DNA from: Nitrosarchaeum sp.
Lineage (GTDB): Archaea > Thermoproteota > Nitrososphaeria > Nitrososphaerales > Nitrosopumilaceae
Length of the DNA: 64,000 bases
NCBI GenBank assembly: GCA_025699025.1
Contig: JAILWJ010000001.1
Location: 354,488 to 418,487, forward strand
Direction of reading: 5' to 3'
Translations under genes and position numbers: made by a program
Part shown: one piece after another, positions 42,075 through 51,436 of the stretch
Position numbering within the stretch: position 1 is the stretch's first letter
Layout: each line of letters begins with the position of its first letter
The notes under the pieces: generated by a model
Databases searched by the model: none
Seen by the model: the letters and a program-made list of their open reading frames with translations, nothing else
Told to the model about the DNA's origin: nothing

Positions 42075-42287
42075 ATGGGAATTGTTTCCAAAGGTGCAAA
42101 GTGTAACATCGAGGGGTGTGACAAAGACGGCGCTCGTTCATTAAACACAACCAAAGTAGAAAACGCCGGATTGCGAGTAAGCTCTGCAGGCAAAAAAACA
42201 GTTCTTTGCAAAGATCATTACAAAGAATGGAAGAAAGAATCCAAAGATGACAGAGATTTGGAAAGAGCCAGGTTTGATAAATTTTAA
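42075..42287 (+). CDS. 70-residue Cys/His-containing basic protein
   Basis: Carries C10 and C15 (KCNIEGCDKDG) and C45 with H48 (LCKDHY), a possible zinc finger, in a Lys-rich protein. The spacing recalls ubiquitin-like or ribosomal zinc modules but no family is assigned. It is divergent from S25e and converges with deoxyhypusine synthase, overlapping it by 4 bp. Position next to ribosomal genes hints at translation or nucleic-acid binding. Confidence 0.68.
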   Translation: MGIVSKGAKCNIEGCDKDGARSLNTTKVENAGLRVSSAGKKTVLCKDHYKEWKKESKDDRDLERARFDKF

Positions 42288-43375
42288 TTCTTTTTCTTTG
42301 TGTTTCTTTTGACACCTGGCGTGTTAAAATAATCTTGGCTTAGATGATCATAGTATTTGGATAATTTTTTGTATAGTCTTTTTGGCTTTCTTGCTTTTTG
42401 ATTGCTTAACACATACAATGCAAGAATGGGAAACGCAATTGTAGCATCCGCGTAAACTGTGATCATTCCATGATGTGCATCTTGAACCTTGCCCCAACTT
42501 TTCCCTTCTTGCAAAGTTGCACCTGACAGTCCTCCTGTATCCGGTCTTGCGTCTGTGATTTGTATGACGTAGTCTTGTCCTCCATCGTTTCTTTTGAGTA
42601 TCTGATCAAGAAGGGGCCCTGTTTGTTGTGCTGTGTTCTTTGGAACTCCTCCACCCAACTCTAGAATTCCTGATTTTTTCGAGTTGTAAAGGATTGCCGC
42701 CTGCTCTATTATCTCTCTGACAAAATCTAGATTGTATACCTTGTTTTGTAACCTGTGTACTGCTAGGTTTAGTGCAAGTGAAGAATCTTTCATTGTGGAT
42801 ATGTATACTGGAACATCATACTCGTATGCTGCTGTGATGAAACTCTTTTCTGGATATTTTGCTTTTTCTTTGCTTATCTTCCCCATCATGTTGCAAAATT
42901 CTGCTGTGGTGAATGGTTTTTCTGTAAATTCATTTTCAAACATACTCTGAATAATTTTGTCTTCTGTTTCCAATGTCTCGACAAATTTTATGTATACGTC
43001 TCTGATTCTTACAATTTCATTTTCATACAATTTCATATCATCAACATCAAAACTTCCTTGTTTTACTGGCAACCCCCACGCAAAATGATCTTCATGGTAT
43101 ACATTGGCCCCTGTAGTGATAATCCAATCAACAAATCCACGCTCAATCAATGTTTTGATAATGCCTCCAAATCCTACTGGTGTCATTGCACCTGACACTG
43201 TAAGGCATATTGTTGCATCTTCTTCAATCATTCTTGCAAATAATTTTGCAGCTTCACCTAACTGTCTTCCATTATACCCTGAACTGGCAAAAACATCCAC
43301 CAGCTGCTCTATGGTCATATTTGGATCAAGTTTGATGTGTGGGATGTCTTTTCCATGAAATTTATGTGGGTCCAC
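42284..43375 (-). CDS. dys: Deoxyhypusine synthase
   Basis: Transfers the aminobutyl group of spermidine to a lysine of initiation factor aIF5A. The 363-residue protein starts at GTG and has the NAD-binding ILELGGGVPKNTAQQTGPLL, GGQDYVIQITDARPDTGGLSG (cited in part) and, near the end, WGKVQ and ITVYADATIAFPIL; the Lys in WGK corresponds to the active-site lysine of the human enzyme. A spermidine-related agmatinase (50.6 kb) and a HEAT protein with His-Glu pairs (46.4 kb) lie in the same window. Confidence 0.94.
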   Translation of the reverse strand: MDPHKFHGKDIPHIKLDPNMTIEQLVDVFASSGYNGRQLGEAAKLFARMIEEDATICLTVSGAMTPVGFGGIIKTLIERGFVDWIITTGANVYHEDHFAWGLPVKQGSFDVDDMKLYENEIVRIRDVYIKFVETLETEDKIIQSMFENEFTEKPFTTAEFCNMMGKISKEKAKYPEKSFITAAYEYDVPVYISTMKDSSLALNLAVHRLQNKVYNLDFVREIIEQAAILYNSKKSGILELGGGVPKNTAQQTGPLLDQILKRNDGGQDYVIQITDARPDTGGLSGATLQEGKSWGKVQDAHHGMITVYADATIAFPILALYVLSNQKARKPKRLYKKLSKYYDHLSQDYFNTPGVKRNTKKKN

Positions 43376-44198: not shown

Positions 44199-44588
44199 CT
44201 ATCTTTTTTGTATGATTAGTTTCTGACTTGAATTTACTAGATCAAGTACCTGATTTAATTTTTCAATTGAGAATGGTTTGAAAATGACTGCATTGACATA
44301 TTCCTCTTGCACTGTATTTTCTAATTCTTGAGACATGTCTGCCGTAACTAAAACTATCTTTACTTTTGTTGATTTTTTTCTGATCTTCCTTACCGCCTCA
44401 ATTCCGTTCAAATCTGGCATGTGTACATCTGAAAATACAAATTCGGGCTCGTATTGTTCAAAAAGTTTTATTGCATCGTATCCATTATGCCCCATTCCCA
44501 ACACTTTGAATCCTTGCAGTTGAAGAATTTCTGCAAGAAGTTCAACAATTTCTCGTTGATCATCAATTACTATGGCAGTTCTCTTCAT
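44199..44588 (-). CDS. Single-domain response regulator (CheY-like)
   Basis: A stand-alone receiver domain with D9-D10 (VIDDQ), phosphoacceptor D54 (FSDVHMPDLNG), T82 and K104 (VIFKPF), so the phosphorylation machinery is complete. There is no output domain and no kinase gene beside it. The ATG at 44588 is favoured over the TTG at 44597, because the shared CCAWATWTGG palindrome ends 2 bp before it, as at the HEAT gene. It may act by protein interaction. Confidence 0.9.
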   Translation of the reverse strand: MKRTAIVIDDQREIVELLAEILQLQGFKVLGMGHNGYDAIKLFEQYEPEFVFSDVHMPDLNGIEAVRKIRKKSTKVKIVLVTADMSQELENTVQEEYVNAVIFKPFSIEKLNQVLDLVNSSQKLIIQKR

Positions 44589-44590
44589 AA

Positions 44591-44606
44591 TTTCCAAATA
44601 TGGAAA
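44591..44606 (-). promoter_or_regulatory. CCAWATWTGG palindrome before the response regulator gene
   Basis: On the coding strand TTTCCATATTTGGAAA, followed by TT and the ATG. A TATA-like AATTAAATA lies about 30 bp before the start, so the palindrome would cover the region between TATA box and transcription start. Confidence 0.55.
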
Positions 44607-44664
44607 TGATATTTAATTATTCTGTGACTGTTATTAAATAAGGAGACTTTTCTGAATTTTTTGC

Positions 44665-45639
44665 TTAGATTGACTCTTGTCCTTTTATGATTTCTTTTTG
44701 TTCTTGCTGCTTAATCTCATCTGACTCTGCTAATTTATTGCGTAAAAGGAATATTCCTGCCAATGTGATTATGAGTGAAATTATGTCTATGGTGGTAATT
44801 TCTTCTAAAAGAATAATTCCTGCAAACAATATTCCAAAAACAGACGTAGTTGAATAAAGCAATATTGTCTTTACTGCCCCAATTAACTTTAGACCTGCCA
44901 AGAACAGTAGTGTTGAAATGCCTGTGCCTAAAATTGAAATGACTGCAATGTTTGGCAGATGCGCTATGTTGAAGTTAAATGGTATGTTAAATACCACGAT
45001 AAATCCCAATGCAAATATTGCACAGAAAAATGATGTGATCTGCGTGACTCTTCGGGGATCATATCTGTCTCCTACGTACTTACAAATGGTAATGTCTACT
45101 GCATAAAGAAAGCCAGAAATTATTACTAGAAGATCACCTGTCATGATATCTTGCACGCTTATATTGTTTTGATACATCTCGTTTCCTATTGGGATGATCA
45201 TCATCCCAATTATGATCATTGAAAAAGGGATGCACTCCCTTATGTTCAGTCTTTCCTTGAATACCAGCATTGCAATTACAAGCGAAAATATGATTTCGCT
45301 ATTGCTGAACAAAGACGCATTTACTGCAGTTGAATTTTGCATGCCAAAAAAATATGTTGAAAGTGCGGCGACTTCAGAAAATCCAATCAATGCCATGAAA
45401 ATTATATCCTTTTGTGTGAATTTGCTAATTTGACTGGTTTTTCTTGCAACAGGTGTGAAGAATATACCGCAGATCATGTATACTAAAAATGTCATCACTA
45501 TCGGGTTTATCTCAACCAAACCCTGTCCTGTTTCTAACATTGGTTTTGATATGATGTGGACTAGTGATGACAGGGCTGCTGCTAAAATTATAAAATAATA
45601 TCCATATCTTGATTTTGTCAATTTAAGATTAAATTTCAA
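44665..45639 (-). CDS. EamA-family (DMT) transporter
   Basis: The 324-residue protein has ten hydrophobic helices in two five-helix repeats, each with EamA features (for example GFSEVAALSTYFFGM and LGTGISTLLFLAGL, with LYSTTSVFGILFAGIILLEE cited in part). Transport of a small metabolite or amino acid is likely. It starts at TTG at 45639, with the shared palindrome 3 bp upstream, and follows the HTH regulator gene on the same strand. Confidence 0.88.
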   Translation of the reverse strand: MKFNLKLTKSRYGYYFIILAAALSSLVHIISKPMLETGQGLVEINPIVMTFLVYMICGIFFTPVARKTSQISKFTQKDIIFMALIGFSEVAALSTYFFGMQNSTAVNASLFSNSEIIFSLVIAMLVFKERLNIRECIPFSMIIIGMMIIPIGNEMYQNNISVQDIMTGDLLVIISGFLYAVDITICKYVGDRYDPRRVTQITSFFCAIFALGFIVVFNIPFNFNIAHLPNIAVISILGTGISTLLFLAGLKLIGAVKTILLYSTTSVFGILFAGIILLEEITTIDIISLIITLAGIFLLRNKLAESDEIKQQEQKEIIKGQESI

Positions 45640-45642
45640 TCG

Positions 45643-45658
45643 TTCCCATATTTGGAAA
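45643..45658 (-). promoter_or_regulatory. CCAWATWTGG palindrome before the EamA transporter gene
   Basis: On the coding strand TTTCCAAATATGGGAA, 3 bp before the TTG start. A TATA-like AGATTTAAGG box lies about 30 bp before the start. Confidence 0.55.
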
Positions 45659-45695
45659 CAACAAGTGCCTTAAATCTGATCTTGTGAAAAATCTA

Positions 45696-46301
45696 TTATA
45701 TTTTTATAGTCTGCAAAACTGTACTGTTTTTTTGTTCAAAGTTTGACAACTGGATGTCTACGGATACTTTGTTTTTCTCTATGTTTATTCTTAGGTTGGA
45801 AAATACACATGCATATTGGTTGATTTTTTTATTTTCTCTAACAATATGATCTGTTACATATAGTAATCCTTCGTCAATCAGAGCATTTATCTTTCTATAT
45901 CCTGATGTTTGCGGCAAATTGCATTCTTTGATTATATCTGCAATTATTTTTGGTTGTTCTGCAACTGATTCTAGAATCTTTTTCTTTTCGGTATCTCCAA
46001 ATGCTTGTAATATAACTGAATTTATGTCGGAATCTGCTAGTGAATACCAGTTTTCTTTTGATTTCTTTGTTTTTGATTGAAATATATTTTCAAAAAACCT
46101 TTTCTCTAATCCATCTGCACCTTTTCCAAAAAATTCACGTAAAACAAGATCAAGCTTGTCAAACTCTTCCATGGACTGTGTTAAAGATATTCCAAATTTC
46201 TCAAACAGTCTATCCTCAATTTTTTTTACTGCTTGAGACCCAAGATTTTTTCTAATTGTTATGTCGAGAGATTTTGCAAGCAGGTGGTCTAATCCAGACA
46301 T
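45696..46301 (-). CDS. Regulator with N-terminal NitrOD5-like domain and winged helix
   Basis: Residues 1-75 (LDITIRKNLGSQAVKKIEDR, EFDKLDLVLREFFGKGADGLE in part) resemble a Nitrosopumilus output domain (NitrOD5-like) that occurs in thaumarchaeal signalling proteins. Residues about 95-160 form an ArsR-like winged helix (ILESVAEQPKIIADIIKEC, SGYRKINALIDEGLLYV). The gene is between the EamA transporter and the HEAT gene, all of which have the shared palindrome nearby, so it is the best candidate for the factor binding it. This is inferred from position only. Confidence 0.8.
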   Translation of the reverse strand: MSGLDHLLAKSLDITIRKNLGSQAVKKIEDRLFEKFGISLTQSMEEFDKLDLVLREFFGKGADGLEKRFFENIFQSKTKKSKENWYSLADSDINSVILQAFGDTEKKKILESVAEQPKIIADIIKECNLPQTSGYRKINALIDEGLLYVTDHIVRENKKINQYACVFSNLRINIEKNKVSVDIQLSNFEQKNSTVLQTIKI

Positions 46302-46372
46302 ATTTCTTATTGTGTTTAGTACTTTATTAATTTTCTTAGTGGGTAATAAAGGAAATTCTTAAAAACTATTAA

Positions 46373-46388
46373 TTCCCAAATTTGGTAA
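46373..46388 (+). promoter_or_regulatory. CCAAATTTGG palindrome before the HEAT-repeat gene
   Basis: TTCCCAAATTTGGTAA, containing the perfect 10-bp palindrome CCAAATTTGG (46376-46385), lies 2 bp before the ATG, with CTTAAAAACTAT as a TATA-like region upstream. It is also in the intergenic space of the divergent winged-helix gene. Confidence 0.6.
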
Positions 46389-46390
46389 TT

Positions 46391-46888
46391 ATGGCAATAC
46401 AGCTTTTTGACGAAAATAACATGAGACAGCTACCTGATGCCGAGAGATTTCGCATATGTGCAGAAATCCTAAAAACCGAATCTGACGAATCGAAGAGATG
46501 GGATGCGGTTTGGCTAGTAGGCGAATTAGCCGAAGACCCCGATAATAAAAATGGTCTGAGGGAAAAAGTTGGTGACATGTTGGAATGGACTTTGAGAAAT
46601 GATCTCAATGGCGTTGTAAAGCATGAAGCAAGCTTTCAAATTGCAGCAAGAAATCTAAGAAACAAAATACATGTTCTAACTGACATTGCATTAAATGACA
46701 ATAGTGTTCTATCAAAACATGAGGCGATAGAAGCATTGGGTTTGATGCGAGCTTTTGAGGTGGAAGATCTAATCGAGAAAGCTTTAGATGATCCGAGCAT
46801 TGATGTTCAAGAAACTGCCCACTTTGTTTTAAAACGATTTGCTCGTCTTCGCAACCAAGGCGAATACAAACCTTCGTCTATATTATAG
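46391..46888 (+). CDS. Small HEAT-repeat protein with two His-Glu pairs (half-DOHH-like)
   Basis: The 165-residue protein consists of about four HEAT-like helical pairs. The second and third carry H78-E79 (VVKHEASFQIAAR) and H110-E111 (LSKHEAIEALG), 32 residues apart. Human deoxyhypusine hydroxylase has eight HEAT repeats and His-Glu pairs at 56/57, 89/90, 207/208 and 240/241, that is two pairs 33 apart in each half, so this protein has the layout of one half; a dimer could rebuild a di-iron site. Deoxyhypusine synthase is encoded 3 kb away. It may equally be an ordinary HEAT scaffold. I choose ATG 46391 over TTG 46382. Confidence 0.75.
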   Translation: MAIQLFDENNMRQLPDAERFRICAEILKTESDESKRWDAVWLVGELAEDPDNKNGLREKVGDMLEWTLRNDLNGVVKHEASFQIAARNLRNKIHVLTDIALNDNSVLSKHEAIEALGLMRAFEVEDLIEKALDDPSIDVQETAHFVLKRFARLRNQGEYKPSSIL

Positions 46889-46979
46889 ATGATGTTAATA
46901 CCATCATACTATTTTTTATCCAACTAGCACTATTTTTCACTAACGCTATACTAAAACACAAGGACTACTTTCGTCATCT

Positions 46980-47753
46980 ATGGATGAACCTGATGTAGTA
47001 CCAAACAAATTGAATACTAACATAAATTACAAAGTTATTCTGGGCATTATTTCAGCCGTTTTGATCTTTCATATCTTTGTTAACTATGCCTCGGCTCCAG
47101 ATGATGCTGATGTTATAATCTCTGTTTTTTCATTTTTAAACCCCTTGGCAGTCTCCATTGCATCATTTATTGTTGCAGTAAAATACATTGACGCTGGAAT
47201 TTATCGTAAGGCCTACTTGATCTTGGGTTTTGCATATTTGATGATTTTTCTAGGTGAAATAACTTATCTTGTTTATGATTTATTTTTAGGCATTGAACCA
47301 TATCCCTCAATAGCTGATGTTTTCTTTTTCTTGCAATATCCGCTAACACTTGGATATTTACTGTTAAACATCAGATTCTTTACGTCCTTTAATAACAAGT
47401 ACAAAGCCTGGGTTGTACTTTTTCCCATGTTTATTTTGTTAAGTTATGGAGTTGCTGCTCTGGAAGAACTGGATTTTGAATTTGACTTCTTTTATGGTAT
47501 GTTGTTTGTATCTGGTGCTAGTGTTTTACTGTCTTTTGCTATTTTAGGTGTGACAATATTTAGAAATGGATTATTGGGAAAGGCATGGATGATACTGGTT
47601 ATGGGTATTCTTTCTTTGACAATTGGTGATGTGTGGTATTATTATTTGGAGCTTGTGGGTGAGTTTGATCTTATCCATCCTGTCAATCTATTTTGGTATG
47701 CTGGGTATTGGATTATAATCTATGCATTATACAAACATAAGAAAATAATCTGA
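46980..47753 (+). CDS. Eight-helix membrane protein, solitary sensor-like domain
   Basis: The 257-residue protein has about eight membrane helices. The segment EPYPSIADVFFFLQYPLTLG is typical of membrane sensor domains fused to histidine kinases or cyclases in other organisms, but no output domain follows; it ends with a basic KHKKII tail. It could signal through a partner. Its upstream region is separate from the HEAT gene. Confidence 0.65.
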   Translation: MDEPDVVPNKLNTNINYKVILGIISAVLIFHIFVNYASAPDDADVIISVFSFLNPLAVSIASFIVAVKYIDAGIYRKAYLILGFAYLMIFLGEITYLVYDLFLGIEPYPSIADVFFFLQYPLTLGYLLLNIRFFTSFNNKYKAWVVLFPMFILLSYGVAALEELDFEFDFFYGMLFVSGASVLLSFAILGVTIFRNGLLGKAWMILVMGILSLTIGDVWYYYLELVGEFDLIHPVNLFWYAGYWIIIYALYKHKKII

Positions 47754-47762
47754 TGACCTGTG

Positions 47763-48266
47763 TTATGACTCTAGCTTGTTCCAAACAACTTTTCGAAGTA
47801 TCACATACGGTGTTTTTTCAGATTCATTTGGCAAAATCATCTTTGTATGATCTGAAAACACATCAAAATCATTCATTAAATGCTTGAAACTCTCATCGTT
47901 TTCTAAGGTTGTCAGGTGATTCTCGCTCCACCTCCAATCACTGTCTTTGTTACATGAATACACAATCCAATAATATGAATTCTTGATTTGTATGATGTCA
48001 AAAGGATACAATCTGCAATCTATGGGCCTTGCATTGTATATTCTACATTGCCCAGTTTTTTCATTCCAATATGTGCATTCTGTGGATGCTTCTTTCTTTT
48101 TTAGGGCGTTAACCTGCCTCCCCTTGATGTTGATCGTTTTAATATTTTTGATGTATTCTGGGTCTTCATTCATTATTTTTTTCAAATCATTTGCAAACAC
48201 TAAAGGTACGGCCGAATCTGTGCAACAATTTTTATGATTACAATTGCTACATAGATTTTCAAACAT
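47763..48266 (-). CDS. YkgJ-type cysteine cluster protein
   Basis: The 167-residue protein has LCSNCNHKNCC near its N-terminus and, further on, GQCRIYNARPIDCRLYPFD, the Cys-rich pattern of the YkgJ (Fe-S/zinc cluster) family. The role of the family is unsettled; an iron-sulfur or zinc site is expected. It is convergent with the membrane-protein gene. Confidence 0.82.
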   Translation of the reverse strand: MFENLCSNCNHKNCCTDSAVPLVFANDLKKIMNEDPEYIKNIKTINIKGRQVNALKKKEASTECTYWNEKTGQCRIYNARPIDCRLYPFDIIQIKNSYYWIVYSCNKDSDWRWSENHLTTLENDESFKHLMNDFDVFSDHTKMILPNESEKTPYVILRKVVWNKLES

Positions 48267-48314
48267 TGTTATTGATAATACTTTGTGCCTTTAATCATTT
48301 TTGATGATGCTTTC

Positions 48315-48554
48315 TTACCCTGATAGTGATTTTGTGTGTGTGGATTTTGCAAATGCCAATTCTAGTTTTTTGTTTATAATCTCTACGTCTTTTTTGGATA
48401 GTGTAAGTTTTTGATTTTTAACAATTTTACATTCAACTGTAATGGGTAATTCTTTGATATTTGAATACTGTTCATATGTTAATATTGCAACATTTGCTTT
48501 TGGATCTCCTTCAAATCTAAATTTGACTCTTAACGAAGGTTTTGAATCGTTCAT
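48315..48554 (-). CDS. Hypothetical protein, 79 residues
   Basis: Small mixed alpha/beta protein (RVKFRFEGDPKANVAILTYE, cited in part) with no recognised domain. It is 48 bp upstream of the YkgJ-type gene in the same direction and divergent from ThrRS. Coding potential looks normal for the genome. Confidence 0.55.
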   Translation of the reverse strand: MNDSKPSLRVKFRFEGDPKANVAILTYEQYSNIKELPITVECKIVKNQKLTLSKKDVEIINKKLELAFAKSTHTKSLSG

Positions 48555-50563: not shown

Positions 50564-51436
50564 ATGAGCTTTCTTGATTTATACCTGAACCGAAACCCTT
50601 TGATTACCGCGTCTGGCGAAGGAAGTCCTGTAGCTACCGTATTTGGCATTCCTTTTGATTCTACTCATTCCTACAAGCCTGGATGCAGGTTTGGCCCGGA
50701 TGTAATTCGTGATGCTTTTAACAACATTGAGATATTTCACCCCGACCTTGGTATAGATCTTGAAACTGCAAATATTGAAGATTTGGGAAACACAACCCAC
50801 ACCGTTTCTCCAAGCGAGATGATTGACATGGTAAAAAAAATCACCACTGAACTTGTTGCAAGAAAAAAACAGCTCTTCATTTTAGGGGGCGAACACTCTT
50901 TGACATATGGCACATACATGAGCTTTCCAAAAGAAACTGGTTATGTCGTATTTGATGCGCACTATGATCTGCGAGATGAATTTGCAGATACCAAGCTTAG
51001 CCATGCCGCATATCTTCGAAGAATTGTAGAGGAGAGAGGGTCTGATAATATCTTGCATGTAGGAGCCAGATCCTTTGTAAAAGAAGAGCTTGAATTCCTC
51101 AAAGAAAACAACATTAAAACAATCACAGATAGGCAAGTAAGATCAGGTAAAGGCCCTGAAATTCTAAAACAATTTGCATCGTCATTTGATTCGTTGTATG
51201 CAAGCTTTGATCTTGATGTCCTAGACCCTGCATATGCTCCAGGCGTTGGAAATCCAGAGGCAGTTGGAATGACTTCACGTGAGCTATTTGATTTGATTTA
51301 TTCGCTTGGAGATACCACGGTGACTGGGGTTGATATTGTGGAATTAAATCCTCAGTTTGATAATGGTTCTACTGCATCTATTGCTGCCAAGATAATGTCT
51401 ACGTTAATTGCCCTTAATGTGGCTCAAAATCATTAA
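50564..51436 (+). CDS. speB: Agmatinase/arginase-family ureohydrolase
   Basis: The 290-residue enzyme has the binuclear manganese ligands in GGEHSLTYG (about 108), FDAHYDLRDEF, and SFDLDVLDPAYAPG, all intact. It would split urea from agmatine or an aminopropyl-agmatine, a step of polyamine synthesis, and so could supply substrate for deoxyhypusine synthase. It is co-transcribed with thrS (3-bp gap). The choice agmatinase versus other ureohydrolase rests on overall resemblance. Confidence 0.88.
   Translation: MSFLDLYLNRNPLITASGEGSPVATVFGIPFDSTHSYKPGCRFGPDVIRDAFNNIEIFHPDLGIDLETANIEDLGNTTHTVSPSEMIDMVKKITTELVARKKQLFILGGEHSLTYGTYMSFPKETGYVVFDAHYDLRDEFADTKLSHAAYLRRIVEERGSDNILHVGARSFVKEELEFLKENNIKTITDRQVRSGKGPEILKQFASSFDSLYASFDLDVLDPAYAPGVGNPEAVGMTSRELFDLIYSLGDTTVTGVDIVELNPQFDNGSTASIAAKIMSTLIALNVAQNH

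Follow-up and report, generated by a model that had tools for sequence, protein, structure and literature searches.

Half-size relatives of deoxyhypusine hydroxylase in Nitrosarchaeum: a candidate for the archaeal enzyme and a putative paralogue with another substrate

Archaea contain hypusine or deoxyhypusine, and in papers up to 2021 no archaeal deoxyhypusine hydroxylase (DOHH) is known (PMC5178350, PMC6105217, PMC8153317). For ammonia-oxidising archaea and Asgard, no report of hypusine or DOHH was found in the open-access literature. The window, i.e., the whole 64,000-nucleotide stretch of Nitrosarchaeum DNA analysed here, contains a gene for a short HEAT-repeat protein (protein A) that an earlier note had put forward as a possible archaeal hydroxylase. 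The question raised by this locus is whether A hydroxylates deoxyhypusine or does something else with a similar architecture. The open reading frame of A starts with ATG, has the exact bounds 46391-46888 on the plus strand, and includes the following features:

46391..46888, plus strand: coding sequence of protein A, 165 amino acids, a four-hairpin HEAT protein resembling half a DOHH (open reading frame; PDB sequence, profile, and fold matches; AlphaFold2)
46622..46627, plus strand: H78-E79, the first His-Glu pair, corresponding to H56-E57 and H207-E208 of human DOHH (invariant in 41/41)
46643..46645, plus strand: A85, seven residues after the first His, where DOHH has its substrate-binding Gly (G214 and the matching residue of the N-half)
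46718..46723, plus strand: H110-E111, the second His-Glu pair, corresponding to H89-E90 and H240-E241 of human DOHH (invariant in 41/41)

The AlphaFold2 model of A, built with 15 homologues as input, is a confident solenoid of four helical hairpins (mean pLDDT 90.4), in which hairpins 2 and 3 each carry one His-Glu pair on their second helix, at the same register. Together with the translated reading frame, it confirms the description of about four HEAT repeats carrying H78-E79 and H110-E111, 32 residues apart; the spacing is 33 in human DOHH. A chain of 165 residues and four hairpins is not the eight-hairpin, two-halves-in-one-chain protein that DOHH is, and Pfam returned only a sub-threshold HEAT_2 match. 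A lack of conservation of the pairs among orthologues had been named as a refuting outcome, and both pairs are kept in all 41 distinct homologues of A, at identities down to about 31%. H78 and H110 are the only conserved histidines in these 41 proteins, and the counterparts of the DOHH iron ligands (H78, H110, and E111) are invariant throughout. A has its own conserved N-terminal repeat (DES-RWD-WL), and its last repeat has the wording "DP..V.ET....R" in common with DOHH.

Human DOHH (4d4z) is the sole PDB sequence match of A at E<=10 (1e-6). It also ranks first when the A family profile is compared with the PDB (78.8 bits), with both DOHH halves aligning to the profile, HE on HE, and it ranks first in a Foldseek search with A (E 3.9e-5, TMq 0.71). 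The proposed layout of half a DOHH is thus upheld by sequence, profile, and fold. Masking the His-Glu pairs of A as X reduced the DOHH score from 78.8 to 52.3 bits and its rank from first to fifth, behind designed alphaReps, with DOHH still the best natural protein. Much of the specific likeness of A to DOHH therefore lies in the pairs themselves. Since the pairs are invariant in 41/41 proteins, no other histidine is conserved, and DOHH is the sole PDB match, the correspondence is more than chance.

Generic archaeal HEAT proteins, such as MTH187 and, in this genome, paralogue C, have the same repeat architecture and length as A and its sister protein B (described below). Paralogue C differs from both in lacking His-Glu pairs; searched against the PDB at E<=10, it gave no DOHH match and hit designed HEAT proteins at 6e-37. 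We rejected the explanation that an ordinary HEAT match had been mistaken for DOHH, because the HE-less C is unmatched and masked A keeps DOHH as its best natural match. The likeness between A and DOHH is genuine and stems in good part from the pattern of metal ligands. Membership of A or B in the phycobilin-lyase or NblB families was also rejected. The PBS-lyase-type HEAT proteins (NblB, CpcE/CpcF) share HEAT_2/HEAT_PBS repeats with A and B and give weak profile matches, far below cut-offs (for NblB, 16.9 bits for A and 36.8 bits for B against a family cut-off of 300).

Eukaryotic DOHH (EC 1.14.99.29; human 4D4Z, yeast Lia1) consists of HEAT hairpins, as do A and B, and all three have two His-Glu pairs per half, spaced by 32-33 residues. 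The iron ligands of the human enzyme are H56, H89, E90, H207, H240, and E241; E57, E90, E208, and E241 hold the deoxyhypusine side chain together with two glycines, one of them G214, and the N-half glycine is printed as G65 (PMC9117371). The ligand sets H56/H89/E90 and H207/H240/E241 all have counterparts in A and B. A and B are single halves, whereas the DOHH chain of about 300 amino acids comprises both. In the human sequence, we take the N-half equivalent of G214 to be the glycine at residue 63, seven residues after the first His, instead of the printed 65. This position is Ala in 38 of the 41 A proteins, including that of the window, and Gly in B; A therefore retains both substrate-binding Glu counterparts with the Gly replaced. 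Such a difference in the pocket makes another target more likely for A. In another family of the same order (f8), an A-like protein (L028) that is 31% identical to the window protein and carries both His-Glu pairs has Gly where Ala stands in most A proteins.

When the 1.7 Mb genome was searched with human DOHH (query sequence consistent with the 4d4z alignments), a gene outside the window came first (4e-12), A second (7.7e-6), and paralogue C third (0.18). The first is:

Genome position C1:122734-123219 (L004:1327-1815), outside the window: paralogue B, 162 amino acids, resembling half a DOHH

The monomer model of B shows about four hairpins (mean pLDDT 93.6), so B is not an eight-hairpin single-chain DOHH either. 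Among PDB sequences, DOHH is by far its best natural match (133.7 bits; the next natural protein, YibA, scores 48). In Foldseek, many designed alphaReps rank above DOHH, and the fold alone thus does not single out DOHH for B. Both pairs (H, E, H, E) and a Gly at position +7 from the first His are present in 119/119 distinct B proteins, i.e., one full DOHH half-set of iron ligands and substrate-binding Glu and Gly is retained. In the B of this genome, the counterparts of the iron ligands are H72, H104, and E105. Over A and B together, the iron-ligand pattern of DOHH (His, His, and Glu per half) is invariant in 160 distinct proteins. On these comparisons of sequence, B is the better DOHH candidate. 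The 116 B sequences that reach the C-terminal end also have an invariant TGG tail, for which we know of no DOHH counterpart.

In a phylogenetic tree, DOHH groups with B rather than A (90/84), and its two halves are sisters of each other; given the long branches to DOHH, the grouping is supportive only. DOHH has been described as arising de novo from a HEAT protein without enzymatic function (PMC9040561), and proteins of the A/B type may represent a single-half precursor of the eukaryotic enzyme. It is a tentative but reasonable possibility that B is the missing archaeal DOHH as a half-size homodimer, perhaps of the type from which the eukaryotic enzyme arose by duplication and fusion, and that A is a second new hydroxylase acting on another target.

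In a phylum-wide draw, 53/53 genomes of the family of the window protein carried B, which also turned up in further families of the order and in a small number of genomes from a related one. A contig search with B listed, among its best 80 loci, only close Nitrosopumilaceae relatives. Full-length A, counted as matches with E below 1e-58, is present in 48 of 200 genomes of its family, and so it cannot be the general hydroxylase. All A-bearing genomes of the phylum-wide draw also carry B. This co-occurrence, and the fact that DOHH itself is made of two unequal halves, would fit a heterodimer in which A and B form a two-chain enzyme mirroring the eukaryotic one. Most genomes have B without A, however, and the DOHH halves are sisters of each other instead of one A and one B, which makes a heterodimer very improbable. 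One genome (G105) has two copies of A (C2:136594-137058 and C2:167781-168275), and G430, G436, G497, and G502 hold members of an A-like subfamily that is more remote (E about 1e-36 to 1e-40).

Human DOHH was also searched at E<=1e-5 against 349 Thermoproteota genomes. The matches were half-length A/B genes of about 160 amino acids, with one weak exception in a 415-aa frame (G396, 5e-6); no full-length two-half DOHH gene was found among these genomes. In the phylum-wide draw, the A/B family had no member outside Nitrososphaeria-like families, and the families lacking a match presumably include the relatives of Sulfolobus. Hypusine has been reported in Sulfolobus and other Thermoprotei. Because of its restricted distribution, the A/B family would probably not explain the hypusine of these organisms.

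A neighbouring gene was the second argument for linking A to hypusine. The earlier note had read it as deoxyhypusine synthase and had counted its 3-kb proximity in favour of A. The gene, which we place outside the A module, is:

42284..43375, minus strand: member of the deoxyhypusine-synthase superfamily, homospermidine-biosynthesis type (NCBIfam)

It scores 496 against a cut-off of 450 for the NCBIfam "homospermidine biosynthesis protein" and stays below all cut-offs for deoxyhypusine synthase, so that the assignment has to be replaced by that of a homospermidine-type paralogue. The canonical synthase (NF002294, 440 against a cut-off of 350) lies about 250 kb away in the same genome. The distance from A to a synthase-family gene is 3 kb in the window and ranges from 19-25 kb to hundreds of kb elsewhere, and synthase genes are absent among the conserved neighbours of A at 19 A loci. 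Synthase linkage was therefore discarded as evidence for A. Two copies of the superfamily (here the window gene at 42284-43375 and L001:1438-2379) are present in 36 of the 38 genomes checked, oxidase-less lineages included, and a special pathway marked by the two copies was rejected on that ground. In other families, the two genes are often adjacent to each other.

B has synthase neighbours in one related family. In G265, which belongs to a related order, B is divergent from a synthase-family gene about 75 bp away, with the canonical synthase beside it (L095:7126-9642). In two relatives, the distance between B and a synthase gene is about 5 kb, and this linkage was not seen outside that family. 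In the genome of the window, aIF5A has the loop TSKPGKHG with the modifiable lysine. An agmatinase gene (TIGR01230, above cut-off) at 50564-51436 in the window immediately follows a threonyl-tRNA-synthetase-like gene; for Haloferax, it has been proposed that an agmatinase takes part in deoxyhypusine formation (PMC5178350).

A could itself be a deoxyhypusine hydroxylase, redundant with B or replacing it where present. The matching HE pairs and their spacing, the position of DOHH as top PDB match, and the common wording of the last repeat all agree with this role. B is nonetheless the best DOHH counterpart in the genome, A occurs in only 48 of 200 genomes, its substrate-pocket Gly is Ala in 38/41 proteins, and the adjoining "synthase" is of the homospermidine type. 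The synthase and B are general, while A is sporadic and thus not present wherever the pathway needs it. We consider this role improbable for A, and the original proposal that A is the archaeal DOHH is unsupported. We judge the chances evenly balanced that A and B form a half-size, probably homodimeric family of di-iron hydroxylases, with B as the likely missing archaeal DOHH and A as a paralogue acting on another substrate. The flagged protein A would then probably be a related iron-dependent hydroxylase with another job.

DOHH chemistry uses O2, and the distribution of A/B was compared with that of the oxidase gene COX1. In the order, 106 genomes have both an A/B match and COX1, 11 have the match only, 14 have COX1 only, and 20 have neither (Fisher 8e-9, confounded by phylogeny). 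Most of the match-only genomes are incomplete or fragmented, and the oxidase-less families f7, f12, f13, and f15 are without A/B match as well as COX1. COX1 is present in five of the six B carriers of the related order; the remaining one is a genome of 350 contigs and 81% completeness. B is absent from several oxidase-bearing lineages. The co-occurrence fits an O2-dependent enzyme, with relatedness as a confounder.

These data also bear on a non-enzymatic role, in which A and B would be HEAT adaptors whose His-Glu pairs serve as a structural binding site for a metal or a partner, without any O2 chemistry. HEAT proteins mostly lack enzymatic activity (PMC9040561), A lies among regulatory and membrane proteins, and ordinary HEAT likeness is found beneath the masked pairs. 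Against such adaptors stand the invariance of the iron-ligand pattern in all 160 distinct proteins and the association with oxidase-bearing lineages, and we regard the adaptor role as rather unlikely.

In the favoured di-iron hydroxylase family, each A or B chain consists of four HEAT hairpins, and its two His-Glu pairs would together make one iron half-site. Two chains would face each other like the two halves of human DOHH, each supplying one iron with two His and one Glu; the earlier idea of a dimer that rebuilds four pairs gains plausibility from the likeness to DOHH and the conservation of the pairs. The di-iron centre would bind O2 as peroxide and hydroxylate a side chain that the other Glu residues and the Gly keep in place; a stable peroxo-diiron species is known from human DOHH. 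For B, this side chain would most likely be the deoxyhypusine of aIF5A. A may be an accessory duplicate with the same metal site and an altered pocket that most likely modifies a different target. A half-size DOHH relative with invariant His-Glu pairs provides a named candidate gene in an abundant group of aerobic archaea, and the second paralogue, with its altered pocket, would extend the chemistry known for HEAT di-iron proteins.

The neighbourhood of A offers possible targets. At 19 A loci, its commonest neighbour is the 257-aa membrane protein, and the following genes recur:

44199..44597, minus strand: stand-alone receiver-domain protein (homologue near A in 8/19 loci)
44665..45639, minus strand: EamA-family transporter (homologue near A in 12/19 loci)
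45696..46301, minus strand: 201-aa protein divergent from A, weakly matching a winged helix (14/19 A loci have a homologue within 3 kb)
46980..47753, plus strand: 257-aa multi-pass membrane protein with no Pfam or NCBIfam family (within 1.5 kb of A in 17/19 loci)
47763..48266, minus strand: CxxCxxCC putative Zn/Fe-chelating protein (PF03692; homologue near A in 6/19 loci)

Scans for sigma-70 promoters and terminators found nothing, as expected for an archaeon. Because of these conserved neighbours, a signalling or accessory role is suggested for A, and its target may lie within the cassette of membrane protein, winged-helix protein, and receiver. The conserved cassette around A (window 44199-48554) also holds a NitrOD1 domain protein.
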